Shown one piece after another: positions 282-33,086 of a stretch of 33,086 nucleotides of DNA. Source of the stretch: Gemmatimonadota bacterium. GTDB taxonomy: Bacteria > JAAXHH01. The notes beneath the pieces are model-generated. The model had not been told where the DNA came from. It saw only the letters and a list, made by a program, of their open reading frames with translations, and did no database searches. The DNA lies in assembly GCA_009837395.1 (NCBI GenBank), contig VXTP01000026.1, positions 1-33,086 of the forward strand, given 5' to 3'. Within the stretch, counting starts at the first letter, position 1. Each line of letters begins with the position of its first letter. Position numbers and translations under genes: made by a program.

Positions 282-2328
282 TCGCCCTGCCGGCGATGTT
301 CTCTGCCGTGAAGCCCAGGTGCTCGAACACGTCCTGGTAAGGCGCCGACGCGCCGAAGCGTTCCAGGCCGATGACGTCGCCCCGCGGGCCCACGTACCGT
401 TCCCAGCCCAGCGTGACGCCGGGTTCCACGGCCAGGCGCGCGGTGACCGACGCGGGAAGCACGGACTCCCGATATTCCCCGGTCTGCGCTTCGAACAGTT
501 CCCAGCTCGGCATGCTGACCACGCGCGCGGCTACGCCTTCACCCGTCAGCGTTTCACGGGCCTCGAGCGCCAGGTGAACCTCCGAACCGGAAGCGATGAG
601 GATCACGTCCGGCGTTCCGTCGGAGTCGGCAAGGACGTAGGCGCCCCGGTGAAGGCCGTCGGCGGGCGCCAGACCCCTGGTGGGCGCCAGACCCTCGGTG
701 GGTGCCAGACCCTCGGTGGGTGCCGCGCCGTTTCCTTCCCGGTTCAGTACGGGCAGTTTCTGCCGGGTCAGGGCAAGGGCGACAGGGCCGTCCGTGCGCC
801 TTAGCGCCGCCACCCAGGCTTCCGCTGTTTCGGCAGCGTCGGCGGGGCGGATCAGGGTCAGGTTGGGGATGGCCCGCAGCGCCATGTAGTGCTCGATGGG
901 CTGGTGGGTCGGACCGTCCTCGCCCAGTCCCACGCTGTCGTGGGTGAATACGTAGACCGGCGCGATGCCCATGAGGGCCGCCAGGCGAATGGCCGGGCGC
1001 ATATAGTCCGAGAACACGAGGAACGTGCCGGCGTAGGGGCGCAGACCCCCGTGGAGCGCCATCCCGTTCAGCGCGGAGGCCATGGCGTGTTCGCGCACGC
1101 CGAAGTGCAGGTTGCGGCCTGCGTAGTTTCCGGCGGTGTAGTTCGATTCGGCTTCCACCATGGTGTTGTTGGACCCGGCCAGGTCCGCCGAACCACCCAA
1201 CAGGCCCGGGATGCGCTGGGACAGTGCGTTGATGGTCACGCCGGACGCCTGCCGCGTGGCCATGTCCCCCTGGTCGGGCGAAAAGGTCGGGAGGTTTTCG
1301 TCCCAGCCAGCCGCCAGTTCCCCGTCCATAGCCCGCTGCCAGGTATCCGTCAGTTCGGGAAAGGCTTCCGCGTAGGCATGGACGGCCTGACGCCAGGCCA
1401 GTTCCCATCCCTTGCCGTAGGGGACCATCTGCTGGAACCAGTCACGCACGTCCTCCGGGACGAGAAACTTCGGTTTCAACGGCCACCCGAGGTTTTGCTT
1501 GGTCAGTTCGACTTCCTCTTCGCCGAGGGGCTCGCCGTGGGCCTTGGACGTGCCGGCCTTGTTGGGACTGCCGTAGCCGATGACCGTGCGGCACACGATG
1601 ATCGAGGGTCGATCCGTCTCGTTCCGCGCCATTTCGACCGCGGCTTCGACCCGGGCGAGGTCGTTGCCGTCCAGGACCCGCTGCACGTGCCACCCGTAGG
1701 AGTCGAAGCGCAGGCCCGTGTTCTCCGAGAAGGCCAGGTCCGTGCCGCCGTCGATCGTGATGCTGTTGTCCAGGTAGAGGACGATCAGCTTGCCCAGGCC
1801 GAGGTGCCCCGCGAGGGAGCAGGCCTCGGAGGCGACGCCCTCCATCATGTCGCCGTCGCTGGCGATGACATAGGTGTAGTGGTCGACGATCTCGTGGCCG
1901 GGGCGGTTGTACCGGGCCGCCAGGTGGGCCTCGGCCATGGCCATGCCCACGGCGTTCGCGATGCCCTGCCCGAGCGGTCCGGTGGTGGTCTCCACGCCGG
2001 GCGTATCGCCGTACTCGGGATGGCCGGGCGTCTGGCTTTCCCACTGCCGGAAGTTCCTGATCTCATCGAGGGAGAGGTCGTAGCCGGTGAGATGGAGCAT
2101 GGCGTAGAGCAGCATGGACCCGTGCCCGCCGGAGAGCACGAAGCGGTCGCGGTTCGGCCAGTCGGGATTCTTCGGATTGTACCGCATGAGGCGCGTCCAC
2201 AGTACGTAGGCGATGGGCGCGGCTTCCATGGGAAGGCCTGGGTGGCCGCTGTTGGCCTGCTGGACGGCGTCGACGGCCAGCATGCGGATGGTGTTGATGC
2301 ATCGTTGCTCGAGATCGTGTTCTGACAC
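256..2328 (-). CDS. tkt: Transketolase
   Basis: Thiamine-diphosphate enzyme of the non-oxidative pentose phosphate pathway that moves two-carbon ketol units between sugar phosphates in the cytoplasm. At 690 residues it is near the usual length (about 660-670). Visible motifs are NSGHPGLPM near residue 27, the ThDP/Mg motif SDGDMMEG near 157 followed by [28 protein letters not shown] in the Pyr domain, and [14 protein letters not shown]. The start is GTG at 2328, with AAAAGGA about 8 bases upstream in the mRNA. Odd feature: a loop after [13 protein letters not shown] carries a six-residue repeat (APTEGL-type, four units) that accounts for part of the extra length. The gene lies 104 bases downstream of the FGGY kinase on the same strand, so a kinase-transketolase transcription unit is likely. 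Confidence 0.96.
658..729. repeat. Four 18-bp tandem units inside tkt
   Basis: Units at 658-675, 676-693, 694-711 and 712-729 (plus-strand form like CTCGGTGGGTGCCAGACC) encode a degenerate hexapeptide repeat [18 protein letters not shown]. The repeat is in frame and sits in a loop between the Pyr and C-terminal transketolase domains. Confidence 0.9.
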
Positions 2329-2432
2329 GGTACGCGTCCTTTTCGGTTCGTATTGTAGTTGCGGCTCGTTAATGCGGTTCGTTTGTTCAAGTTCGCCAGT
2401 TTCAGACGCCCGCTAAGATACAACCCGGCCCC

Positions 2433-4037
2433 TCAACTGTCCATCATCATATCGTACAGGTCCTGCTGCCGTTTCATCGCTTCCCGGTAGCGGTCCCGGT
2501 TCGCCGGATCCGGCTCAAAGGTCTTGCCCAGGGGGGCTGGCGCGGCGGCCAGGTCTTCCAGCGCGCCGGAGGCCTCCAGCGCCAGCAACGCGGCGCCGCG
2601 GCTCGAGGCCTCGGTCACGGTCGAGGCGGTGATGGGCCGCTCCAGGACATCGGCCAGCATCTGCATCCAGGCGGGCGACTGCAGCAGGCCGGCACCCGAT
2701 GCGACGATCTCGCCGGTGTCTCCCCAGATCGACCGCAACCGGTCATGGATATTCGCGAAACAGTAAGCCGTGGCCTCCAGGCTGGCCCGCATGACGTCCA
2801 GCGGCGTGGTGTGTAGCGTCATGCCAGTTATGGCCGCCCGGGCGGCGTCGTGCCAGCCCGGACTGCGTTCGCCCGCCCAGAAGGGCAGCACCGTGAGGCC
2901 GTGGCTGTCCGGCGCCATCCCGCCCAGGTCCCGTTCGACCCGCTGCTCGTCGGCCAGGCGCAGCGTGTCGCGCATCCAACCATAGACGTTCCCGCCATTG
3001 CTCAGGGCGCCGCCCATGAGGATCCTGCGCCGGTCCGACCGGTAACACCACAGTCCGTCCGGGATCGTGAACTCCGCGGCACGCCGCATGATCCGCATGG
3101 CGCCGGAAGTGCCCACCATCAGGGCGATGCGGTCCTCGTCCACGCAGCCGCTGCCGATGTTGTTACAGGCGCCGTCGCCGATGGCCGGATACCAGGACGC
3201 TCCGGCCAGGGCGGGCCAGCGGGAAGCGAATTCACCCTTCAGGCCCCGTACCGGTTCGTCCACGTCGGTTACCGGCGTCAACTGGTCCCGCGCCACCGGC
3301 AGCGCGGCCAGCGTCTCGTCGTCCCAGTCGCACCGGTGGGCGTTGAACAACCCGGTGCCGGATGCCATGGATACGCTGCAGGCCGGCGCGCCGAACCACT
3401 TGAGGAATAGGTATTCACCGATGGACATCCAGCGTTCCACCCGGGCGAACGTTTCGGGATCGGTCCGGGCGAACCAGCATATCTTGGCAGGCAGGTAGGA
3501 TGCGTGGAGCACGCACCCGGTGCGCCCGTGGGTGGAAGCGGCGTCGAGACGCTCGCCCAGTTCGGGGATGACCGTCCCTGGCCGCGTGTCGGCCCAGCTG
3601 ATCAGCGGGGTCACGGCGCGGTCTCCCTCCACGCCCACGACGTTGTGCCAGAACGTGGTCATGGCCACGCCGTCGATCGCTCCATGACCGTCCCCGGCAT
3701 GACCGGCCCCGGCCTGGACGCCCGTTGCCTGTCCGCTCCAGGCGCAGAAGTCGTCGAGCACCGAAGCCACCTCCGCCGCCAGGCGGTCCGCGTCGATGTG
3801 AACACCGCCGTCCGGCGTGGTATCCATGTCGTAGGTTTTTTGAAAGGCGGGAGATGCGATCCGGGCCGTCCGGTCGAAGAGGATCGCCCGTACGGACGAC
3901 GTGCCGATGTCGATGGCCAGCACGAGGGGCGACTGTGTCGAGTCGGGGGACGGCTGAATCGGGTCGCGGGGCGCCCTTGTAGCGGTTCGGGGCAACTGAG
4001 TCGAGTCGCGGGACGGCTGTATCGGGTCGCGGGGCAT
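2433..4037 (-). CDS. FGGY-family carbohydrate kinase, gluconokinase-like
   Basis: ATP-dependent sugar kinase of the FGGY/actin-like ATPase fold (534 residues from this start; family usually about 490-520). The phosphate-1 motif AIDIGTSSVRAILFD is near residues 41-55. VAMTTFWHNVVGV, SWADTR, ASGTGLFN and the second-domain GDGACNNIGSG...MVGTSGAMR follow in order. The ASGTGLFN stretch and general order resemble gluconate kinases, but xylulokinase or another sugar kinase remains possible. A longer frame begins at 4193, but that codon lies upstream of a strong promoter (4146-4174), so I chose the ATG at 4037. Residues 2-37 are a repeat-derived leader with no counterpart in the family, so a start closer to LVLAIDIG is also possible. 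Transketolase follows on the same strand, consistent with feeding gluconate or a pentose into the pentose phosphate pathway. Confidence 0.85.
   Translation of the reverse strand: MPRDPIQPSRDSTQLPRTATRAPRDPIQPSPDSTQSPLVLAIDIGTSSVRAILFDRTARIASPAFQKTYDMDTTPDGGVHIDADRLAAEVASVLDDFCAWSGQATGVQAGAGHAGDGHGAIDGVAMTTFWHNVVGVEGDRAVTPLISWADTRPGTVIPELGERLDAASTHGRTGCVLHASYLPAKICWFARTDPETFARVERWMSIGEYLFLKWFGAPACSVSMASGTGLFNAHRCDWDDETLAALPVARDQLTPVTDVDEPVRGLKGEFASRWPALAGASWYPAIGDGACNNIGSGCVDEDRIALMVGTSGAMRIMRRAAEFTIPDGLWCYRSDRRRILMGGALSNGGNVYGWMRDTLRLADEQRVERDLGGMAPDSHGLTVLPFWAGERSPGWHDAARAAITGMTLHTTPLDVMRASLEATAYCFANIHDRLRSIWGDTGEIVASGAGLLQSPAWMQMLADVLERPITASTVTEASSRGAALLALEASGALEDLAAAPAPLGKTFEPDPANRDRYREAMKRQQDLYDMMMDS
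3684..3713. repeat. Two 15-bp tandem units in the FGGY kinase
   Basis: ATGACCGTCCCCGGC (3684-3698) is followed directly by ATGACCGGCCCCGGC (3699-3713), read on the plus strand. It is in frame and encodes part of a Gly/Ala/His-rich loop (AGAGHAGDGHG). Confidence 0.8.
3927..4034. repeat. 63-bp-period duplication encoding the kinase N-terminal leader
   Basis: The leader peptide contains PRDPIQPSRDSTQ and, 21 residues later, PRDPIQPSPDSTQ, so the DNA repeats with a 63-bp period. It lies between the chosen start codon and the conserved kinase fold, making the kinase N-terminus longer than normal. Confidence 0.8.
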
Positions 4038-4145
4038 GGACGATGCCTGACATCCGGATCGATGATATAATCGCGTCCTGGCGCCGTGCGGACCGGCCGT
4101 GATCATCGGACGCGGATAGAGGAGCGGGAAAGGGCTGCAGGCCGT

Positions 4146-4174
4146 ATTATATCGTCGGGCGGAGCGCGTTTCAA
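4146..4174 (-). promoter_or_regulatory. Sigma70-like promoter for the FGGY kinase-tkt unit
   Basis: On the minus strand, TTGAAA (4174-4169, 5/6 to TTGACA) is followed after 17 bases by TATAAT (4151-4146, 6/6). Transcription would start near 4139, about 100 bases upstream of the kinase ATG at 4037. This also argues against the longer frame starting at 4193. Confidence 0.65.
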
Positions 4175-4200
4175 GCCAAAAGCGCCTGGCCAAGAAAGGA

Positions 4201-4230
4201 TTGACAGGCGGGCTTCGGGCGCGTTATTTA
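4201..4230 (+). promoter_or_regulatory. Candidate sigma70-like promoter for the aldolase gene
   Basis: A perfect TTGACA at 4201-4206 is followed after 18 bases by a weak -10, TATTTA (4225-4230). It lies 70-100 bases upstream of the aldolase ATG, divergent from the kinase promoter 27 bases away. The -35 is convincing and the -10 is weak. Confidence 0.5.
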
Positions 4231-4300
4231 CAGCGTTCTGCGAAATCGATGAAACATTAGGCAATACCGAAGTAAACCGGTCGAGGAGTTACAACAGAAG

Positions 4301-5326
4301 ATGTCTTCCAAACTGAGTGAGGTCGCCCGTGCCATGGTCGCCCCGGACAAGGGGATCCTGGCCGCGGACGAAAGCAGCGGCACCATAAGGCAACGGTTCA
4401 ATGCCATCGGACTGCCGTCGACGAAGGAGAACCGCCGCGCTTACCGCCACATGCTGTTCACCACCGAAGGCATGGAGCAATTCATAAGCGGCGTCATCCT
4501 CTACGACGAGACCTTGCGCCAGAAGGCCCTGGACGAAGCCGAAACGCCCTTTCCCAGACTATTGTCCGACAAAGGCGTGATTCCGGGCATCAAGGTGGAT
4601 ACCGGCATCCATGACCTGGCCGGATTTCCCGGAGAGAAAGTCACCGAGGGGCTCGACGGCCTGCGTGCGCGCCTGACCCGGTACGGTAAGCTGGGCGCCC
4701 AATTCGCCAAGTGGCGGGCGGTCATTACCGTCGGGAAAGGCATTCCCACAGACGTCTGTATCGACGCCAACGCCCATGCCCTCGCGCGTTACGCCGCGCT
4801 GTGCCAGGAATGCGGCATCGTACCGATCGTCGAACCCGAGGTGCTGATGGACGGCGACCACAACATCTACCGGTGCGACGAGGTTACCGGCGTCACGCTG
4901 CGGCAGGTGTTCGAGGCCCTGGCCGTGCACGAGGTCAAGCTGGATGGGATCGTCCTGAAACCCAGCATGGTCATCTCGGGTTCGAAATGTCCCGAACAGG
5001 CTTCTGTGGAGGAAGTCGCGCGCCGCACGGTAAACAATTTCCTGCGCAACATCCCGCGTGAGGTACCCGGCGTCGCCTTCCTGTCGGGCGGGCAGTCCTC
5101 CGAGACCGCCACGGCGCACCTGAACGCCATGAATCACATGTTCGGTGAGCTGCCATGGGAACTCAGTTTCTCCTTCGGCCGCGCACTGCAGGCGGCCCCG
5201 TTGCGGGCATGGGGTGGAGATCCCGCCCGTTTCAAGGCGGGTCAAGAAGCCTTTTTCCACCGTGCCATGTGCAACAGCGCCGCCCGGACCGGTACGTACA
5301 GCGCCGACATGGAAACCGCGGCATAA
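4301..5326 (+). CDS. Class I fructose-bisphosphate aldolase
   Basis: Schiff-base aldolase that cleaves fructose 1,6-bisphosphate to glyceraldehyde 3-phosphate and dihydroxyacetone phosphate in the cytoplasm. At 341 residues it has the length of the eukaryote-like class I type. Landmarks are LAADESSGTI at residues 20-29, AKWRAVI with K137, PIVEPEVL with E178, and DGIVLKPSMVISG with K220 as the predicted Schiff-base lysine. SGGQSSETATAHLNAMN and the FSFGRALQ phosphate-binding stretch follow. The start ATG at 4301 has GAGGAG about 12 bases upstream. It is divergent from the FGGY kinase/transketolase unit, so sugar-phosphate enzymes leave a shared control region in both directions. The HisC-like gene follows on the same strand after 73 bases of repeat-rich spacer. 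Confidence 0.96.
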   Translation: MSSKLSEVARAMVAPDKGILAADESSGTIRQRFNAIGLPSTKENRRAYRHMLFTTEGMEQFISGVILYDETLRQKALDEAETPFPRLLSDKGVIPGIKVDTGIHDLAGFPGEKVTEGLDGLRARLTRYGKLGAQFAKWRAVITVGKGIPTDVCIDANAHALARYAALCQECGIVPIVEPEVLMDGDHNIYRCDEVTGVTLRQVFEALAVHEVKLDGIVLKPSMVISGSKCPEQASVEEVARRTVNNFLRNIPREVPGVAFLSGGQSSETATAHLNAMNHMFGELPWELSFSFGRALQAAPLRAWGGDPARFKAGQEAFFHRAMCNSAARTGTYSADMETAA

Positions 5327-8445: not shown

Positions 8446-9951
8446 TTACGAGTTTTCCCACGCGGATCGGAGTTCGTGAACTACGAGTGAGACGATGCGC
8501 ACGCCTCCATGCACGCCCCCGCCGGCCGCATTCAGTGCCAGCCGGTGATTGGCCGCGGCCGGCAGGAAGCAGAAGGACATGGACACCTCGCCCTGGTTGC
8601 CGAAAAGCTCCAGCGAGGTGCGGTCGATCAGCAGATGGAGGCTGACGCGGCCGTCGATGGTACGCAGCGCCGCGGTTTTTCCCAGGCAGGACAACGTTTG
8701 CGCTTCCGCATCGTATTCCACGGTATGTCCCTGCACTTCGATGGTGAAGCCTCTGGCAACGGCCGATCCGTTACCGTCGCCGAGTTCGTCGTCGCCGTCC
8801 GGGTTGCCGCGACCGTCCACTTCGATCGCCATCCGCACGTCGAACAGGTCGCTCTCGTCTGCCAGGACGAGCCGGCTTTCGGCCTCGCGCAGGTCCGTGA
8901 CCGCGTAGCTGCTGATCTCTCCCGATGCGTACCGCTTCTGAAACTGTTCGGCCTCCATTTCCGCCAGGTCGCCGGCGGGCCAGGTGCGCGTCCCGGTATG
9001 CAGTAGTTCGATTTCCCGCACCGGTTCCCTGCACAGCCGGATCCCGTCCGGCAGCGTCCTGAGCGTCAGTTCAACCGGGAACGACATCTGCTGGTTGAAG
9101 GGCATGGCCGGGTACAGGCCACCCCGCATCCAAGAGATCTGGATCCGCCGGCCGTCCTCCGCCGGGATATCGCTCCAGGTCTGGGCAGCATAACCGTTGG
9201 CGCCCTGCTCCGCCTGCAGGACGTCCGTCTCGGGCGTGAACGAGTGCCCGTCGAAACGCCCGAGCAGGTAGCCGCCACTCGCGCCCCAGAATACCCACCG
9301 CGTGTTCGAGGGGTCTCCGTCCACCGGCAGCTCGAAGAAATCCGGGCATTCGGATACACCGGGCAGGGTAAGGTCCTGCAGGTGCGTCCAGGACTTGAGA
9401 TCCGGGGATGTGAACAGGGCATAGTCATTGCCGTCCATGAACAGCGTCATGATCCATCGCGCAGTCGGTTCGTGCCAGACCACCTTCGGATCGCGGTTCT
9501 CCGCCCGGATGTGCCCGATGACCGGATTGCCCGCGTACTTCGTCCACGTCCGGCCGCGGTCGTTGCTGTGGGCTATACATTGTATACACCGGCGATCGGG
9601 GAACACCCTTTCGCCGCCCGCCGTGTAGAAGGCGATCAGCGGCGGCGTGTCTCCGTCCTGGAACCCGCCGGTGTCGTGATGGTCCACCGCCGCGGACCCC
9701 GACCACATCCAGCCTGTGTCGTCCACGTCCAGTGCGGCGGTGTGCAGCTGTTTCCAGTGGACCAGGTCCGCGCTGACCGCGTGTCCCCAGGTCGTGCGGC
9801 CGTGCACCATGCTGCCCGGCGTGTGTTGGAAATAGAGGTGATACTCCCCGTCGGAATACACCAGACCGTTGGGATCGTTGATCCAGTGTTTTTTCGCCGT
9901 GAAGTGGAATTGGGGGCGGAGGGCTTCCTGGTAGAGGGTGTCGCTGGTCAT
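8446..9951 (-). CDS. Glycoside hydrolase family 32 (beta-fructosidase: levanase/inulinase/invertase type)
   Basis: Five-bladed beta-propeller plus beta-sandwich hydrolase for beta-fructosides, 501 residues. The nucleophile motif WINDPNG is at residues 23-29 (D26). RDP is at 153-155 (D154, transition-state stabiliser) and EC at 201-202 is the acid/base (E201). Also visible are FSDD-region equivalents (WSGSA), SWTHLQDLTLPGVSECPDFFEL and a C-terminal sandwich with RTSLELFGNQGEVSMSFCF. There is no signal peptide: the protein starts MTSDTLYQEALRPQFHFTAKKHW, so it likely acts inside the cell on imported sucrose or fructo-oligosaccharides. No fructose transporter is next to it. The beta-sandwich has an Asp/Gly-rich loop (NPDGDDELGDGNG). 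The start ATG at 9951 has no clear ribosome-binding site. It lies just outside the AT-rich island. Confidence 0.93.
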   Translation of the reverse strand: MTSDTLYQEALRPQFHFTAKKHWINDPNGLVYSDGEYHLYFQHTPGSMVHGRTTWGHAVSADLVHWKQLHTAALDVDDTGWMWSGSAAVDHHDTGGFQDGDTPPLIAFYTAGGERVFPDRRCIQCIAHSNDRGRTWTKYAGNPVIGHIRAENRDPKVVWHEPTARWIMTLFMDGNDYALFTSPDLKSWTHLQDLTLPGVSECPDFFELPVDGDPSNTRWVFWGASGGYLLGRFDGHSFTPETDVLQAEQGANGYAAQTWSDIPAEDGRRIQISWMRGGLYPAMPFNQQMSFPVELTLRTLPDGIRLCREPVREIELLHTGTRTWPAGDLAEMEAEQFQKRYASGEISSYAVTDLREAESRLVLADESDLFDVRMAIEVDGRGNPDGDDELGDGNGSAVARGFTIEVQGHTVEYDAEAQTLSCLGKTAALRTIDGRVSLHLLIDRTSLELFGNQGEVSMSFCFLPAAANHRLALNAAGGGVHGGVRIVSLVVHELRSAWENS

Positions 9952-10180
9952 CGCGGTTTATCCGGACTAAGGCGGGCGGACGGTATGTGTCGGATCAAGC
10001 GATTCTGCCCGAGGATGTCATACGGCGGTCTACTCCTACTGGACCGACCTGGTCAACTGGTCGTACTTGCCTTGCACTGCCATAGCCGACATTATTCGCT
10101 CTTGAGTTCAACACGATCTACTGAATTACCTTTACTGATACATACGGTATTTGGTTTATCCAGAAGTTAAATCAATAGCT

Positions 10181-10219
10181 GTCGAGATTCATTAAATTGA
10201 ATCGGGTCGACTACTTTTT
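10181..10219 (+). terminator. Bulged hairpin with T-run at the left island border
   Basis: GTCGA-GATTCA (10181-10191), a six-base loop, then TGAATC-GGG-TCGAC (10198-10211). The arms pair over 11 bp with a three-base bulge, and TTTTT follows at 10215-10219. On the plus strand this has the layout of an intrinsic terminator that would shield the island operon from read-through. An operator or the end of a small RNA are alternatives. Confidence 0.4.
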
Positions 10220-10255
10220 ATCGTAGGCGGATTCACAATTGACGGTTCTGAATTA

Positions 10256-10311
10256 CAGTGCTTTATTCCAGACTGTGGTATTGCACTGATTATGTATTGT
10301 CGACTTAAAAT
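10256..10311 (+). promoter_or_regulatory. Candidate promoter/operator of the island operon
   Basis: CAGTGC (10256-10261) and its reverse complement GCACTG (10283-10288) are 21 bases apart and flank the place where a -35 would sit. TAAAAT at 10306-10311 matches TATAAT at 5/6. The possible -35 (TTGCAC, 10281-10286) is poor and the spacer is 19. The likely start codon is 26 bases further on. The positions suggest a regulator-controlled promoter, but the match is weak. Confidence 0.3.
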
Positions 10312-10336
10312 ACTGAAATAGAAGGTGGGTTTCAAA

Positions 10337-11437
10337 ATGGGGGTTTGGCATACAGGTGACAATGAGTACCTACGCACCAACATCCACGTTGTTTCAAGTA
10401 TCCCGCTAGTTAAAGAGTATCCATGCAAACGCTGTAATTTGGTTTTTACATCAAGAGAAGAACTTTTCGAACACCGATTTGAGAAACATCCTACATACAG
10501 GCCTACTTTGTTTCTACGTGGTCAGGAGTTAGGTACATCACGCACTCTAGTTACAAGATCGATTTCCGCTACAGATGTGACTTTGAAGATGTGCGATCAC
10601 GCCATAATAAACGACGAAAGTGTAGATGTAACAACAGTACCTTCCCATCTTGCTCAGTTAAGTTCTGATGTTTGTCGGTTGGTACTGGAAAACAAAAACG
10701 TACAAGCAGAATACACTCTCGATTTTCAAATTGCCGAATATGCGGATCTTATTGGGATCGAAAAGCAATTCGTCAGAACTGTTTCTGGGCCGGGACTTGA
10801 TACACGAGCAGTTGATGAATTCATATCAGCTACTTCAGCGTATCGTTCAGCCATCGGCTACTGCGATGGTATCTGCGCGTACTTATATGGTGTACTTGCT
10901 AAGGAACGAGTCCCAGATTCTACATTGAAATACAACGAGTATACTGAGAAATACAACAAATCGGCAGAGAAGTTATCCGTATATGAGCGACCGTTAGCGA
11001 AAACGATTTCTAGTATTATCGAATTTCACTTCAATCATTTCAAGAATGCCAAATTCATGGCTGGGAGTGAACGAATTGGGCAAGCCGCTGCGAGATTTTC
11101 GTCCTTGTTGGACGGTTCAAGGCCATTTTCTGAAATATGGAAAAACACTCCAGCAACCCGTAACAGACTTGATGCTTCAGTTACAGACTGGGAAACCGAG
11201 CAGATCATCCGAATGACTGTATCGCGTAAAGACTATTTAACAAAGAACCTGCCGGAAATGGAGAATCTCCTAGAACGAATCGAAACACATTACGACAGCG
11301 TTAAACTGCACATCCTTTTAGCTGAAATAAACGCTATTGCTGGCAATTACAAAGATGCGCTTCGCCATGCGAAAAAACTTAGAAACTTGCCGGGACTAGG
11401 TAGGTGGGCAACAACAAGCATCCACAAATATGGCTAG
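10337..11437 (+). CDS. C2H2 zinc-finger protein with helical C-terminus; first gene of the island operon; function unknown
   Basis: Protein of 366 residues. A textbook C2H2 finger lies at residues 30-51 (C30-x2-C33-x12-H46-x4-H51, in YPCKRCNLVFTSREELFEHRF), which is uncommon in bacterial proteins. Residues about 55-145 read as beta-rich (RPTLFLRGQELGTSRTLVTRS onward). About 150-366 is largely helical, ending in a TPR-like helix pair (LAEINAIAGNYKDALRHAKKL). No catalytic motif, signal peptide or membrane segment is visible. I chose the ATG at 10337 because AAGGTGG sits 8 bases upstream; a GTG at 10325 is in frame but lacks such a site. The gene overlaps the next by eight bases, implying coupled translation. 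By inference the finger binds nucleic acid or a protein partner and the helical part docks the other two products. I do not recognise an established family. Confidence 0.8.
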   Translation: MGVWHTGDNEYLRTNIHVVSSIPLVKEYPCKRCNLVFTSREELFEHRFEKHPTYRPTLFLRGQELGTSRTLVTRSISATDVTLKMCDHAIINDESVDVTTVPSHLAQLSSDVCRLVLENKNVQAEYTLDFQIAEYADLIGIEKQFVRTVSGPGLDTRAVDEFISATSAYRSAIGYCDGICAYLYGVLAKERVPDSTLKYNEYTEKYNKSAEKLSVYERPLAKTISSIIEFHFNHFKNAKFMAGSERIGQAAARFSSLLDGSRPFSEIWKNTPATRNRLDASVTDWETEQIIRMTVSRKDYLTKNLPEMENLLERIETHYDSVKLHILLAEINAIAGNYKDALRHAKKLRNLPGLGRWATTSIHKYG

Positions 11438-12545
11438 GACAGTTATGAAAAACGTAGACCATGTGTCCCCTGAAGATCCCAAACTCGATTCAGAATTACC
11501 TGAACAGAAATCTGTGACAACAAGTGTCGTTTTAAATAGTTCATCTCGTACAAAGTCTCAACCTGTCGAGAGTGTTGGTCAGTTGATTCTCCAAGTATAC
11601 GACGGTACTTTTAAGCGCAAGAAGTTACGAAAAATTGAACTTGATTTCTTGCGTAAACAATCGCAATTGAGTGATGAGTCAATTAACGAACTAGTAAATC
11701 AGACGTCTGATGATAGGATTCTCACATCAACGTTTAACTTACTACAAATTGGCTTGAGAGTAGAATCGTCTAAAGTTTCGGATGAGATTGCGAGATTTGT
11801 GCTAGTAACACTAAAAAAACACCCTGTATTCAAAGGACCTTGGCTCAACGGTCCCGTGGAGAATGTAATTCAAGTAATTTCAAATCACAGGCGTTATGAA
11901 AGCCTAAGGTGGACCGATGAAGGATCCAAGTTAACAAATAAAGAAATGAAAGAGTGTAGGAAGAATGCACTTAGGTGCTATTTAATATGGGCTTGGATGA
12001 CGAAGAGTGTCCCAATTGAACGTGTTATTGACTATTTATTGAAACACACTTGGAAACCGTCGGTACGGTCGTCCCAAACTGATGCAGAAAAAGTGGTTTT
12101 TCTAGTTAACGCTCGTGATTCTGAAGCAATTGTAACCTCAACCGACATACTTCATAGAGATGCTGCAGATCAGAAAACCCGCGCTGATTCAGCCGAATCT
12201 GAGAATGAACAGTTATTGAAACAGGTTTCGACGTTGGAATCAAACCGGGACGAAATCCAATCAACGTTATATGACACGCAAGTTAAAGCCGATTCACTTA
12301 AGAAGTTGCTTGAAAAAGAACGCCAGGACCACGCCAACGATAGTGCCCATCTAAAGGATGACTATGAAACACTTCGGGGGCAGGTTTTACGCCGATTGAA
12401 TGAAGAATTGGCATTACTTGAAGCAGGACTTCATGCACTTAGAAGGAACCCCCCGAAAGTTAACGTTATGGTCGACCATGCCGAGCGTGTTATTGATGGT
12501 CTGAGGGACGAATGTAATCGGCTTCTAAAAAGAGGAGATGGCTAA
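11430..12545 (+). CDS. Helical/coiled-coil protein, second gene of the island operon; function unknown
   Basis: Protein of 371 residues. Residues 1-48 are polar and probably disordered. About 49-210 is a helical domain (QLILQVYDGTFKRKKL..., ALRCYLIWAWMTKSVPIERVI). About 243-335 is a long heptad-bearing coiled coil (AESENEQLLKQVSTLESN, SLKKLLEKERQDH). The end is a compact helical segment around RRNPPKVNVMVDHAERVID. The long coiled coil followed by a small C-terminal unit, next to an Hsp70 gene, recalls the general layout of GrpE nucleotide-exchange factors, but I see no clear GrpE signature, so this is analogy only. The start at 11430 overlaps the previous stop. ATG at 11445, with AGGA five bases upstream, is a good alternative. 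The 3' end overlaps the Hsp70-like gene by eight bases. No membrane or catalytic features are visible. Confidence 0.78.
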   Translation: MARTVMKNVDHVSPEDPKLDSELPEQKSVTTSVVLNSSSRTKSQPVESVGQLILQVYDGTFKRKKLRKIELDFLRKQSQLSDESINELVNQTSDDRILTSTFNLLQIGLRVESSKVSDEIARFVLVTLKKHPVFKGPWLNGPVENVIQVISNHRRYESLRWTDEGSKLTNKEMKECRKNALRCYLIWAWMTKSVPIERVIDYLLKHTWKPSVRSSQTDAEKVVFLVNARDSEAIVTSTDILHRDAADQKTRADSAESENEQLLKQVSTLESNRDEIQSTLYDTQVKADSLKKLLEKERQDHANDSAHLKDDYETLRGQVLRRLNEELALLEAGLHALRRNPPKVNVMVDHAERVIDGLRDECNRLLKRGDG

Positions 12546-14307
12546 GTTGAACGTGTTCGGTTTCGACTTCGGAACTACAAACAGTCTCATCTCAGTTATT
12601 CGAGGGAATCGTGCGATTTGCTTCCTCGATGAAGAGGACCGTCCAATCCCTTCGGTGGTCTGTTACGAAGGTGCCCAGAAGATTCTTGGTCGAAACGCAA
12701 AGGATCGGCTTGCCAAATCCGGATTAGGCGTTCAGGGCAACATTGTTCAATCACCGAAAATGTACTTAGGTCGAGATAGTGTCTTCGTCGAAGGCGTAGA
12801 AAGAACTCCAGTAGACATGGTTTCTGATGTAGTCCAACATGTACGCCAACAGGCGACGAATAGCGAACGTAACTCAGAGGAAATCTCAGCCGTAGTAGTC
12901 ACTATTCCAGTGGGTATGAAAGGATACCAGCGACGCGCACTTAGGGATGCATTCAAGATTTCCGGTATGAATATCCGACAATTTGTTCACGAACCGTTAG
13001 CTGCACTTTACGGTCTTTTCCGCTCCAGACGGTTTCCTGAAATGAGACGCCGTTACAACGGGAAGCTCATCCTAGTGTTTGACTGGGGTGGTGGTACCTT
13101 GGATCTGACTCTTTGTCGCGTAATAGATGACATGATAGTTCAGTTAAAAAATGACGGTACTGATGAAGTAGGAGGTGATGTATTCGATGAAACTATCATG
13201 AATCGTCTCTTACAGATTACCAGACAAACCCGGTCGCTTAGTGAAAGTGTCGAAGTATTCCCAGGAGCAAAGTCTCGCCTATTACATCATTGCGAACGAG
13301 CTAAAATTGATTTGTCCACTCGTTCCCAAGTGGCGATTTACGTTGATAGTTTCTTTAGTGGAGTAAAAGAAGAGGAATTTGACTATGTTTTACATCAACG
13401 AGATCTTGAACAACTTGTAAAGCCGCTACTAGACAAAGGCTTTGAACGTATTCGGAGAGTTTTGAGTGATGCCGGTTATTCTATGGATGAAGTTGCGCTT
13501 TGCGTAGCAACAGGCGGAATGTCAAATATGCCGGCAATCAAACAACGCCTTCACGAATGGTTCGGTCCTGAAAGAGTCGAAATACCGGACAGTACCGCTA
13601 CATTGATCTCTGAAGGTGCAGCTTGGATCGCTGCAGATTCTGTACGTCTTATTTTAGCCAAGAATATAGAGTTAGAACTAGCTCGGAATTCGTTCTTGCC
13701 AGTTGTCAAAGCAGGTACACTAATGCCCAATGAGCATGAAGAAAACACTCAGACTTTAAATCTTTATTGTACAGACCCACGCGACGGCGTAGCAAAGTTA
13801 CAACTTTGTGCGCCAAAACGACCTGGGAAGAGTGTGTTAACGAGTGAACCCAGAGATATACTAGATGTTGTGACCGTTAAGGTTGACTCGAAGGCCCAGG
13901 CATTTAAAGAACGCTTGGAGCTTGATACAAAACTGGATGATGATCTCATTTTAAAGGCGCATGCACGATCTCTTAACCATAAAGACGAAGATTATTGTGA
14001 AATACATGATTTAGAATTCGGACTAAAGTTACCTCACAGTACTAATCGCACTGATAAAACCGATACTTCATGTGACAATGTGAACACGAGAGTTGCTAAC
14101 CCTCCATCAGGCTCGATTAGTGTTCGCCCAAATGTAGCCGAAGATGTCGATCAATTTCTTGTACCGGGCGAATACCTCTACCAATACAATCCAGGCTACT
14201 TTGATGCACGTCGTAATCCGCCAGAGTTGCAGAGATATGAGAGACTTTACTACGAGCCTTGCTCAATTTGCGGCAAAGCGTCCAACGACCCAGCGTGTAA
14301 ATGTTAG
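12538..14307 (+). CDS. Hsp70-like ATPase with atypical C-terminus and terminal four-cysteine knuckle
   Basis: Protein of 589 residues. The nucleotide-binding domain (about 1-375) is intact: phosphate-1 FGFDFGTTNSL (D10, T13, T14), SPKMYLGRD with K74 at the catalytic-lysine position, and VVVTIPVGMKGYQRRAL. VHEPLAALYG (E152), phosphate-2 LVFDWGGGTLDLT (D182, G184-G186) and the adenosine motif VATGGMSNMPAIK (G326-G327) follow. After about 380 there is a beta-type stretch, but no recognisable helical lid and no EEVD-like or DnaK-type tail. Instead it ends C575-x2-C578-x8-C587-x-C589, a likely zinc knuckle. It is shorter than DnaK (about 640). An AGAGGAG abuts the ATG at 12538; TTG at 12547 would be better spaced and would remove the overlap with the upstream gene. 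No DnaJ or GrpE gene is nearby. The inferred role is an ATP-driven switch that remodels or holds its operon partners; a dedicated chaperone, defence or stress role is possible. Confidence 0.88.
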   Translation: MAKLNVFGFDFGTTNSLISVIRGNRAICFLDEEDRPIPSVVCYEGAQKILGRNAKDRLAKSGLGVQGNIVQSPKMYLGRDSVFVEGVERTPVDMVSDVVQHVRQQATNSERNSEEISAVVVTIPVGMKGYQRRALRDAFKISGMNIRQFVHEPLAALYGLFRSRRFPEMRRRYNGKLILVFDWGGGTLDLTLCRVIDDMIVQLKNDGTDEVGGDVFDETIMNRLLQITRQTRSLSESVEVFPGAKSRLLHHCERAKIDLSTRSQVAIYVDSFFSGVKEEEFDYVLHQRDLEQLVKPLLDKGFERIRRVLSDAGYSMDEVALCVATGGMSNMPAIKQRLHEWFGPERVEIPDSTATLISEGAAWIAADSVRLILAKNIELELARNSFLPVVKAGTLMPNEHEENTQTLNLYCTDPRDGVAKLQLCAPKRPGKSVLTSEPRDILDVVTVKVDSKAQAFKERLELDTKLDDDLILKAHARSLNHKDEDYCEIHDLEFGLKLPHSTNRTDKTDTSCDNVNTRVANPPSGSISVRPNVAEDVDQFLVPGEYLYQYNPGYFDARRNPPELQRYERLYYEPCSICGKASNDPACKC

Positions 14308-14327
14308 ATAGTTGTTGATTACGGCCG

Positions 14328-31040: not shown

Positions 31041-33086
31041 TTATTCACAACCATCAATCCAGGCGAACGTAAGCCCGTCAAGCCATGTCTGAAAATCGGT
31101 ATCGGAAGGTGCACATAGCCCTGTGTCGTTCAGGCGCAACTCAACGAGGTTGGAAAGACGGAGGAGCGATGATGGCAGGGCTCCCGACATTTGAGTGTTG
31201 TGTGAAAGCCCAAGTACTCTCAGGCTGGCCAGATTGCCAAGAGTGGACGGCACATCGCCCGATAGGTTATTTCGGTTAATGCACAGTACTTGTAGATTCC
31301 GCATTGAGCCCAGTTCAGGGGGAATCGGTCTCGTCAACCCGTTGTTATCAAGAATCAGCGCCCATAGGTTTTGCAGCCTTCCCAGTTCGGCGGGGATCTC
31401 GCCCGTCAACTCATTGTCATTAAAGTCTAATCTTTCAAGTTTCTGCAGTCGTCCCAGTTCGGCGGGGATCTCGCCCGTCAACTTATTCCAGCGTAGTTGC
31501 AGAACTTCGAGATTCTGCAGTTGACCTAATTCAGCGGGGATGGCGCCTGTCAGGTCATTGCCTTCAAGATCCAGGCTGAGAAGATTCTGCAGTTGGCCAA
31601 GTTCAGCGGGGATAGCGCCCGTCAGTTCATTGCCTTCAAGAGACAACCATTTGAGTTTCTGCAGTTGACCCAGTTCGCGAGGAATCGGTCCCGTCAGTTG
31701 GTTTCTGTCAAGAGCTAGATACCCACTGAGGTTCCTCAGCCGTCCCAATTCGGCCGGGATGATACCTGTTAACTGATTGCCGCCAAGGTGCAGCCATTCA
31801 AGATGCTGCAACCTTCCCAGTTCAGCAGTGATGACGCCTGTCAACTGGTTGGTAAAGAGGTCCAAACCGATCACTCTCTCATCGAGGCCTGCTGTGGTCA
31901 CACCATGCCATTCGTGTAGAGGCTTATCGCTCAGCCAGTTGGTGTTGTTCGTCCAATTCGGGCCGTCCGTGGCGTGGTAAAGCGCGATCAGCGCGTCGCG
32001 GTCTGTCGAAGGTTCAAGGTCATCCTCGCAGAAACTGACACCCGCCTTGTACATGATTCCATCCACCCACGACTGAAACACGGGTTCCGCAGGTACGCAG
32101 AGATTCGTAGACTCCAGCCGCAATCCTTCCAGTTCGATACCGGTTAAAGACCGGGGCAACGGACCGGTCAATCCTTGGTTATTGCTGAGTACCAGCGTTT
32201 TGAGATTCGAGAGATCGCCCAGTTCGGGTGGCAATCCACCCACCAGTTGATTATAACTCAAGTACAAGCTTACTACGTTCTCGAGTTGGCCCAGTTCTGA
32301 AGGTATGCTTCCTGACAATCGGTTGTTGTTAACGTTAAATCCCGTGAGGTTTCCGAGTTTACCCATTACGCGCGGGATGCTGCCCGTCAGTTCATTGTTT
32401 TGGAATTGCAGGGTTACGAGTTGCTTTAGTTTGCCCAGTTCGGGAGGAATGTTACCCGATAACCGGTTGTCGAACAGATCCAGTACCGTGAGGTTTCCGA
32501 GTTCACCCATTTCGCGCGGGATGCTGCCCGATAACTGGTTGTCATACAGGTGCAAGTTCCGCAGGTTAACCAGTTTGCCCAGATCAGAAGGGATGTTGTC
32601 CGTTAGCCGGTTGCCGCCGAGGTTGAGGATTTCAAGGCTGGTCATATTCCCCAATTCGGGCGGAATTGAACCGGAAAGTTGATTGTCTTCGACAAACAGC
32701 CAGAGAAGGTTCCTAAGTTTAATCAAGTCCAGTGGGATATGGCCCGTCAGTTCATTGTTGCCCAATAACATCAGTTCCAGATTACTCAATTGTCCCAGTT
32801 CGGGTGGGATACCGCCCTTTAACTGATTCATATCGAGAAACAACTGGGTTAGTTCAGTCAACTGGCCGAGTTGCGGAGGAATCGTTCCGGTCAGGTTGTT
32901 CTCGCGTAGCCCCAGATAGGTCACACGCCCGTTACTTTTGGCGTTAACCCCGTACCAGCTATTTAGCGGCGCATCACTCAACCAGTTGGTGTTGTCCGTC
33001 CAGTTCGGACCGTCCGTGGCGTTGTATAGTGCGACTAATACGTCACGATCTGTCGACATTTCCGGCGGGGGAGGAGGAGGCGGGGG
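31041..33086 (-). CDS. Large protein with two plant-type leucine-rich-repeat modules and a poly-Pro linker (5' end outside window)
   Basis: The frame stays open to the right edge. The ATG at 33059 is preceded in frame by Glu and eight prolines, so it is internal and the true N-terminus lies beyond the window. Module 1 (about 33056-32030) and module 2 (about 32010-31041) each open with STDRD-x-L-x-ALY-x-ATDGPNWT-x-NTNWLSD and a W-x-GV cap. They then carry 11 and 10 repeats of about 24 residues ending LSG-x-IP-x-ELG-x-L, the plant-type LRR consensus. Each closes with a two-cysteine cap (LCVPAE...SFCEDD; LCAPSD...DGCE), and the protein ends straight after the second cap. LRR solenoids bind proteins or glycans; export is inferred from the cysteine caps, but no signal is in view. 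GC is lower than neighbours (about 45% in module 1, 58% in module 2 on sample lines). Confidence 0.9.
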   Translation of the reverse strand, partial: PPPPPPPPEMSTDRDVLVALYNATDGPNWTDNTNWLSDAPLNSWYGVNAKSNGRVTYLGLRENNLTGTIPPQLGQLTELTQLFLDMNQLKGGIPPELGQLSNLELMLLGNNELTGHIPLDLIKLRNLLWLFVEDNQLSGSIPPELGNMTSLEILNLGGNRLTDNIPSDLGKLVNLRNLHLYDNQLSGSIPREMGELGNLTVLDLFDNRLSGNIPPELGKLKQLVTLQFQNNELTGSIPRVMGKLGNLTGFNVNNNRLSGSIPSELGQLENVVSLYLSYNQLVGGLPPELGDLSNLKTLVLSNNQGLTGPLPRSLTGIELEGLRLESTNLCVPAEPVFQSWVDGIMYKAGVSFCEDDLEPSTDRDALIALYHATDGPNWTNNTNWLSDKPLHEWHGVTTAGLDERVIGLDLFTNQLTGVITAELGRLQHLEWLHLGGNQLTGIIPAELGRLRNLSGYLALDRNQLTGPIPRELGQLQKLKWLSLEGNELTGAIPAELGQLQNLLSLDLEGNDLTGAIPAELGQLQNLEVLQLRWNKLTGEIPAELGRLQKLERLDFNDNELTGEIPAELGRLQNLWALILDNNGLTRPIPPELGSMRNLQVLCINRNNLSGDVPSTLGNLASLRVLGLSHNTQMSGALPSSLLRLSNLVELRLNDTGLCAPSDTDFQTWLDGLTFAWIDGCE
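31381..31800. repeat. 72-bp coding repeats of LRR module 2
   Basis: Starts such as CCCAGTTCGGCGGGGATC recur every 72 bases (for example 31381, 31453 and near 31525), matching the 24-residue LRR period. Several neighbouring units are nearly identical at DNA level (LTGAIPAELGQLQNL, LTGEIPAELGRLQ), which suggests recent duplication or conversion. Confidence 0.85.

Follow-up and report, generated by a model that had tools for sequence, protein, structure and literature searches.

A recurrent zinc-finger, coiled-coil, and Hsp70 gene trio as a candidate chaperone-powered anti-phage system of bacteria

A three-gene unit encoding a C2H2 zinc-finger protein (ZnF), a coiled-coil protein (CC), and an Hsp70-family ATPase is repeatedly found, in one fixed order, inside or beside known antivirus systems in unrelated bacteria and is therefore probably an undescribed chaperone-powered anti-phage system. 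That this trio has a defense role of some kind, probably directed against phages, is well supported by its genomic context, and we regard such a role as highly probable. The copy described here lies in a 33,086-nucleotide stretch of DNA that was analyzed as a whole and is hereafter called the window.

Gene content and composition of the locus

All three plus-strand open reading frames that the first-pass annotation had placed at window positions 10337-14307 were confirmed, namely, the genes for ZnF (10337..11437), CC (11430..12545), and Hsp70 (12538..14307), and both overlaps between them are, as it had claimed, exactly 8 bases long (ATGGCTAG, 11430-11437, and ATGGCTAA, 12538-12545). The ZnF frame is open from a GTG codon at 10325, with an alternative ATG start at 10337 that is the likely one because conservation among the homologs begins at the MGxWHTG motif. 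The trio is the sole gene content between GH32, which ends at 9951, and DUF1854 (14328), so that the description of an island without other cargo holds. The genes around it in the window serve routine metabolism and transport (GH32, PLP enzyme, transketolase, FGGY kinase, aldolase, ABC transporters, DUF1854, PfkB, and PhyH). Elsewhere in the window, positions 31041-33059 encode a 672-aa LRR-repeat protein within a stretch whose GC content, about 52%, is below that of the remaining window.

The base composition of the trio is indeed far from that of its flanks (GC of 0.43 vs 0.64). Across the 68 genome loci of the family described below, the mean difference between trio and flanks is modest (0.033); the strong contrast is therefore special to the window lineage and a few others, and low GC content was rejected as a general trait of the trio. 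The annotation had also credited the operon with a control region of its own, a claim that stands in part: the region immediately upstream (9958..10336) is AT-rich, non-homologous to the empty sites, and presumed to be the control region, whereas the pattern matches in a control-region search stayed at the level of shuffled sequences, with no excess of either promoters (7 vs 7.4 in shuffles) or terminators (3 vs 3.9).

Lateral acquisition of the trio

Alignment to eight same-genus loci that lack the trio delimits the acquired segment to 9958..14324. In these eight genomes, the gap between GH32 and DUF1854 measures 0.87-1.04 kb in seven and 3.7 kb in one (G003); in G010, 868 bp separate the homologous ends and contain a single phytanoyl-CoA dioxygenase (PhyH) gene. 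The corresponding interval of the window spans 4,367 bp and holds the trio, with the PhyH gene absent there, and in another genome (G004) the trio and PhyH are both present at the site, with the Hsp70 gene split between two contig ends. Because the trio is missing from this site in the eight same-genus genomes and is present in 2 of the 16 genomes of the window's phylum, we conclude that the site accepts inserts and that the trio was laterally acquired. The GH32-DUF1854 interval is a small insertion hot spot, and the earlier view of the trio as a self-contained operon inserted between housekeeping genes is borne out by the eight sites without it. A search for transposon ends recovered no direct repeat of at least 8 bases common to the two ends searched, and the trio carries no mobility gene of its own. 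The LRR gene of G003 (L112, G003:C12:1200-7700; ORF 1789-4614) encodes a 942-aa protein and fills the interval.

Recurrence and joint divergence across bacteria

A scan of the genome collection seeded on Hsp70 recovered 68 loci at 37-93% identity, beyond which identity fell abruptly to 29% or less, among generic Hsp70s. CC is encoded directly upstream of Hsp70 in all 68 loci and ZnF upstream of CC in 67, the exception (L072) being cut by a contig end, and gene order and strand are identical throughout; ten generic Hsp70 loci contained no match to ZnF or CC. Scans seeded on ZnF, covering 396, 399, and 369 genomes (about 1,160 in total), gave six genomes, each with the trio (two re-checked and four already among the Hsp70-seeded loci), and no ZnF outside it. 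By the titles of the records, the trio is spread over about nine phyla (Latescibacterota, Binatota, Acidobacteriota, Nitrospirota, Pseudomonadota, Actinomycetota, Cyanobacteriota, Myxococcota or 'Deltaproteobacteria', and Chloroflexota), and this fixed-order recurrence across phyla makes it a unit beyond chance. The check proposed in the first-pass annotation, recurrence in the same order in unrelated bacteria next to defense genes, thus turned out positive, and the converse outcome that it had named, homologs that never co-occur or that stand apart in core settings, was not encountered: the trio is always linked, and ZnF is never found alone in the genomes scanned.

The distribution is very rare and patchy: among the 370-400 or so genomes covered by each ZnF-seeded scan, only the center genome and one other had the trio. 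The nearest relative of the window Hsp70 is a Binatia sequence (70% identity), and one other genome of its own phylum has the family. The trio is carried by two related conjugative Paenarthrobacter plasmids (L004 and L005) and by two contigs of the viral collection, one of them a BREX locus (L008) and the other (L007) with serine integrase and ParB-like genes nearby; the phage collection contained no ZnF match. An IS3 element breaks the ZnF gene of each of these plasmids, and the pieces left differ between the two. A weak ZnF-like match (H3, E = 4e-4) on Rhizobium leguminosarum plasmid p2 (L006), which adjoins Shedu and restriction genes in a defense island, was taken as spurious or a remnant, the ORFs of the locus having no profile match to ZnF, CC, or Hsp70.

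The three proteins diverged together: the pairwise identity matrices of ZnF, CC, and Hsp70 correlate at 0.86, 0.83, and 0.80 (Mantel-type), with the highest of 300 permutations reaching 0.24. Mean identity is 50% for Hsp70, 31% for ZnF, and 22% for CC, and this much faster divergence of ZnF and CC would fit recognition parts. Between two species of the genus (L003 vs the window), identity is 92% for the compared part of Hsp70, 60% for CC, 75% for ZnF, and 84% for the flanking GH32; the partners therefore outpace the chaperone in divergence at this range as well.

Domain organization of the three proteins

The Hsp70 matches PF00012 at 7e-49, above the cut-off, and its profile alignment to the DnaK nucleotide-binding domain (NBD) and substrate-binding beta-domain (SBD-beta) extends through DnaK residue 484. 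In the NBD (12553..13647, plus strand), residues D10, T13, T14, K74, E152, D182, and D189 correspond, when aligned to DnaK, to its catalytic set and are invariant in all 59 homologs, so that the ATPase reported as intact is, judging from its residues, predicted to be so. A region resembling the SBD-beta follows (13648..14037, plus strand), with no recognizable alpha-helical lid after it, the profile alignment to PDB 5obu ending at query position 490; close to the C-terminus, a zinc-knuckle-like motif, CxxCx8CxC (14260..14304, plus strand), has its Cys residues in 59, 59, 55, and 58 of the 59 homologs. The NBD and SBD-beta align with DnaK at 25-30% identity and thereby resemble the housekeeping Hsp70s DnaK and HscA, but the protein scores far below the NCBIfam cut-offs for DnaK and HscA (153.5 bits against 648), ends in a Cys-knuckle tail where DnaK has the helical lid, and has ZnF and CC as obligate partners. 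With neither the equivalog score, nor the alpha lid, nor the housekeeping partners, it does not qualify as DnaK proper.

ZnF consists of an N-terminal MGxWHTG motif, one C2H2 finger, a beta domain, and a C-terminal helical (TPR-like) domain, which in the AlphaFold model (pLDDT of 90.6) appear as the finger, a mixed beta domain (residues 61-135), and a helical array (residues 139-369). The two Cys and two His residues of the finger (10424..10489, plus strand; C34, C37, H50, and H55, counted from the GTG at 10325) have C2H2 spacing, are invariant in 59/59 homologs, and match a PDB C2H2 finger profile; in the single ZnF sequence, the finger is weak (Pfam E value of 0.009, below the cut-off). CC is modeled (pLDDT of 88.3) as a helical domain (residues 49-226), a 108-residue helix (231-338), and a short C-terminal return helix (344-370). 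By column conservation, its most conserved stretch, DDYExLRxxVxRRLxxExxLLxxGLxALRxxPPKxxVM..ER..dgL..E, maps to 12348..12527 on the plus strand.

Neither predicted fold matched the PDB at E<=0.001, and the roles proposed below for ZnF and CC are guesses for that reason. The weak PDB matches of the ZnF model were largely to TPR proteins, and its fold search produced no viral match. There was no convincing match of either protein among the PADLOC and NCBIfam models, the weak coiled-coil matches reflecting composition, and none to a Pfam family apart from the weak C2H2 finger. These results agree with the claim that the two proteins lie outside any named family, and ZnF and CC appear to represent two new protein families with confidently predicted folds. 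The long-helix-plus-hairpin model of CC and its DYExLR motif suggested a GrpE-like nucleotide-exchange factor, a candidate that was rejected: the hhalign probability against a 35-sequence GrpE alignment was 1.8%, compared to 1.1% for the reversed control, and GrpE was not among the families matched by most of the 59 CC proteins in the Pfam scan. A J-domain in ZnF or CC was rejected as well, since the families listed when 59 members of each protein were scanned with Pfam do not include DnaJ. The trio has no recognized nuclease or toxin domain.

Association with defense genes

Among the 71 loci in the neighborhood table, 13 contain BREX genes, 12 of these with PglX, and in all 12 loci with PglX the trio sits between pglX and pglZ of type 1 BREX. 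At the viral-collection locus L008, for instance, PADLOC identified the neighbors as PglX (E = 0), PglZ (1.6e-294), and BrxL (1.2e-303). The trio itself matches no PADLOC model of brxA, brxB, brxC, pglX, pglZ, or brxL and is not a core part of type 1 BREX. A GmrSD-type gene is present in 8 loci and an HmaA-like gene in 4; in yet other loci, Hhe/PDC-S37-like, type III restriction, or SNF2 helicase genes adjoin the trio, which is thus enriched next to known defense genes. In Thiocapsa sp. KS1 (L015:2557-14731), the trio lies between HmaA and HmaB, which make up a known defense system. A decayed BREX locus (L144, G487:C259:22000-40000) retains an intact trio and GmrSD between short pglX and brxL fragments.

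In a PADLOC scan, 78 non-BREX neighbors of the trio matched 170 models at E<=1e-15, compared to 31 for 75 neighbors of generic, unrelated Hsp70s, a contrast that is only rough because many models overlap, and for which this single gene set is the sole control. The window copy has no recognized defense gene adjoining it, its defense context coming from relatives, and together with its nearest relatives (Binatota, Acidobacteriota, and Nitrospirota) it mostly has no recognized defense gene within about 10 kb.

Proposed function and alternative explanations

We favor, with somewhat better than even confidence, the explanation that the trio is a compact, laterally transferred, independent three-protein anti-phage module with ZnF as the sensor, CC as the scaffold, and Hsp70 as the ATP-driven remodeler. 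It is supported by the presence of the trio on conjugative plasmids and an integrase-bearing viral contig, and by its retention beside GmrSD in the decayed BREX locus; against it stand the lack of a recognized effector domain and neighborhoods that, for the window copy and its closest relatives, mostly show no recognized defense gene. Phages commonly depend on the host Hsp70 machinery, lambda and DnaK being the textbook case. ZnF, with its finger, beta domain, and TPR-like helices, would be the recognition subunit and might bind an invader molecule, nucleic acid, or nucleoprotein, and the long-helix CC could serve as a dimeric scaffold or as a co-chaperone docking on Hsp70. ATP hydrolysis by Hsp70 would then clamp or remodel whichever invader complex is bound (one serving replication, packaging, or anti-restriction, for instance) or, alternatively, free ZnF and CC from an inhibited state. 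Either the infection would be blocked directly or neighboring restriction systems would be protected and armed. More tentatively, and with less than even confidence on our part, the trio may be a stand-alone, nuclease-free machine and a class of defense of its own, in which Hsp70, the ZnF sensor, and the CC co-chaperone clamp or dismantle a phage nucleoprotein complex with ATP. Confirmation of the anti-phage module would bring a chaperone-based mechanism into bacterial immunity, account for a three-gene insert that recurs in BREX loci, and provide the two protein families for further testing.

The position of the trio exactly between pglX and pglZ in 12 loci, often with GmrSD, and between HmaA and HmaB in one could instead mark it as an accessory, inactive alone, that folds, assembles, or shields PglX/PglZ/GmrSD complexes or counters phage anti-restriction proteins on behalf of BREX and other restriction systems, in line with the recruitment of backup and counter-anti-restriction modules by BREX (PMC12839542). 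We consider this unlikely given that most loci, the window included, are without BREX, that the trio is kept where only fragments of BREX are left, and that its partners elsewhere are unrelated (dynamin, Hma, and GmrSD) or missing. Any phage link would disappear if the trio were a specialized stress or protein-quality-control chaperone set that lies in gene-insertion hot spots by chance. The intact Hsp70 catalytic residues and the SBD-beta would suit such a set, as would solo copies between metabolic genes and the window site, itself an insertion spot with an LRR gene in another species, but the very rare, patchy distribution of the trio, its repeated placement within BREX cores, its carriage on plasmids and a viral contig, and a fast-diverging single-finger protein that is no known co-chaperone make this quite improbable. 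We give very little credence to a maintenance or competition module of mobile elements or plasmids, which would, for example, block incoming plasmids or regulate transfer: the conjugative Paenarthrobacter plasmids and the viral contig L007, with its ParB-like and serine integrase genes, are compatible with it, but most copies come from bacterial genome assemblies, mobility genes are missing from the trio, and the BREX slot points to phage.

Comparison with known systems

Consistent with the island having been called undescribed, the literature searched, which did not extend to supplements, subscription papers, or most preprints, contained no description of the trio, and neither ZnF nor CC convincingly matched a PADLOC model; a dedicated, catalytically intact Hsp70 running a defense module was likewise not found in this literature or in PADLOC. 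Among the closest parallels is CnuD of the CoCoNuTs, type III McrBC-related systems (PMC11090510), which is also an Hsp70 NBD/SBD protein in a predicted defense operon with coiled-coil proteins, often adjoining BREX or other restriction systems. CoCoNuTs are built on McrB and McrC homologs, and CnuD has degenerate Walker A-like motifs (PMC11090510), whereas the catalytic residues of the trio Hsp70 are invariant in 59/59 homologs and the protein ends in a Cys knuckle; no McrB GTPase or McrC-DUF2357 was detected among the window genes and the subset of neighbor proteins scanned. Hsp70 and partner genes also occur together in the GAP1-N2 GTPase-centered HSP70 + GrpE and DO-GTPase/tubulin/HSP70 systems (Kaur et al. 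2020, PMC7159879), predicted NTP-dependent, chaperone-threshold conflict systems, but the trio has no recognized GAP1-N2 GTPase, tubulin, DnaJ, or GrpE, CC being no GrpE homolog.

As an extra defense gene that forms a second layer inside a type I BREX locus, BrxU/GmrSD (PMC8565348) offers a positional parallel, and GmrSD adjoins the trio in several loci. BrxU is a nuclease that in pEFER lies between brxC and pglX (PMC8565348), unlike the trio, which has no recognizable nuclease and lies between pglX and pglZ. Nuclease add-ons are listed in a 2026 survey of BREX, the main text of which makes no mention of chaperone, DnaK, heat shock, C2H2, or dynamin (PMC12839542); nor does the main text of DefensePredictor mention Hsp70, DnaK, or chaperone (PMC13092281). 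Lacking the defining features of its nearest relatives and absent from the literature searched, most subscription papers and preprints aside, the trio is a candidate for a new kind of system.

Accessory genes at trio loci

Two further genes accompany the trio in part of its range and may be optional add-ons. A conserved fourth gene, encoding a protein of about 445-540 aa, lies downstream of Hsp70 in 15 actinobacterial loci (L005:13310-14650 and 14 others); the one member scanned matched neither Pfam nor PADLOC. A dynamin-like GTPase with a PLD-like (MIT_C) C-terminal domain is encoded in 8 loci (L022:4648-7569 and seven others) from betaproteobacteria and relatives, directly upstream of the trio in most of them; its MIT_C domain is also similar to the C-terminal part of certain BrxL proteins.
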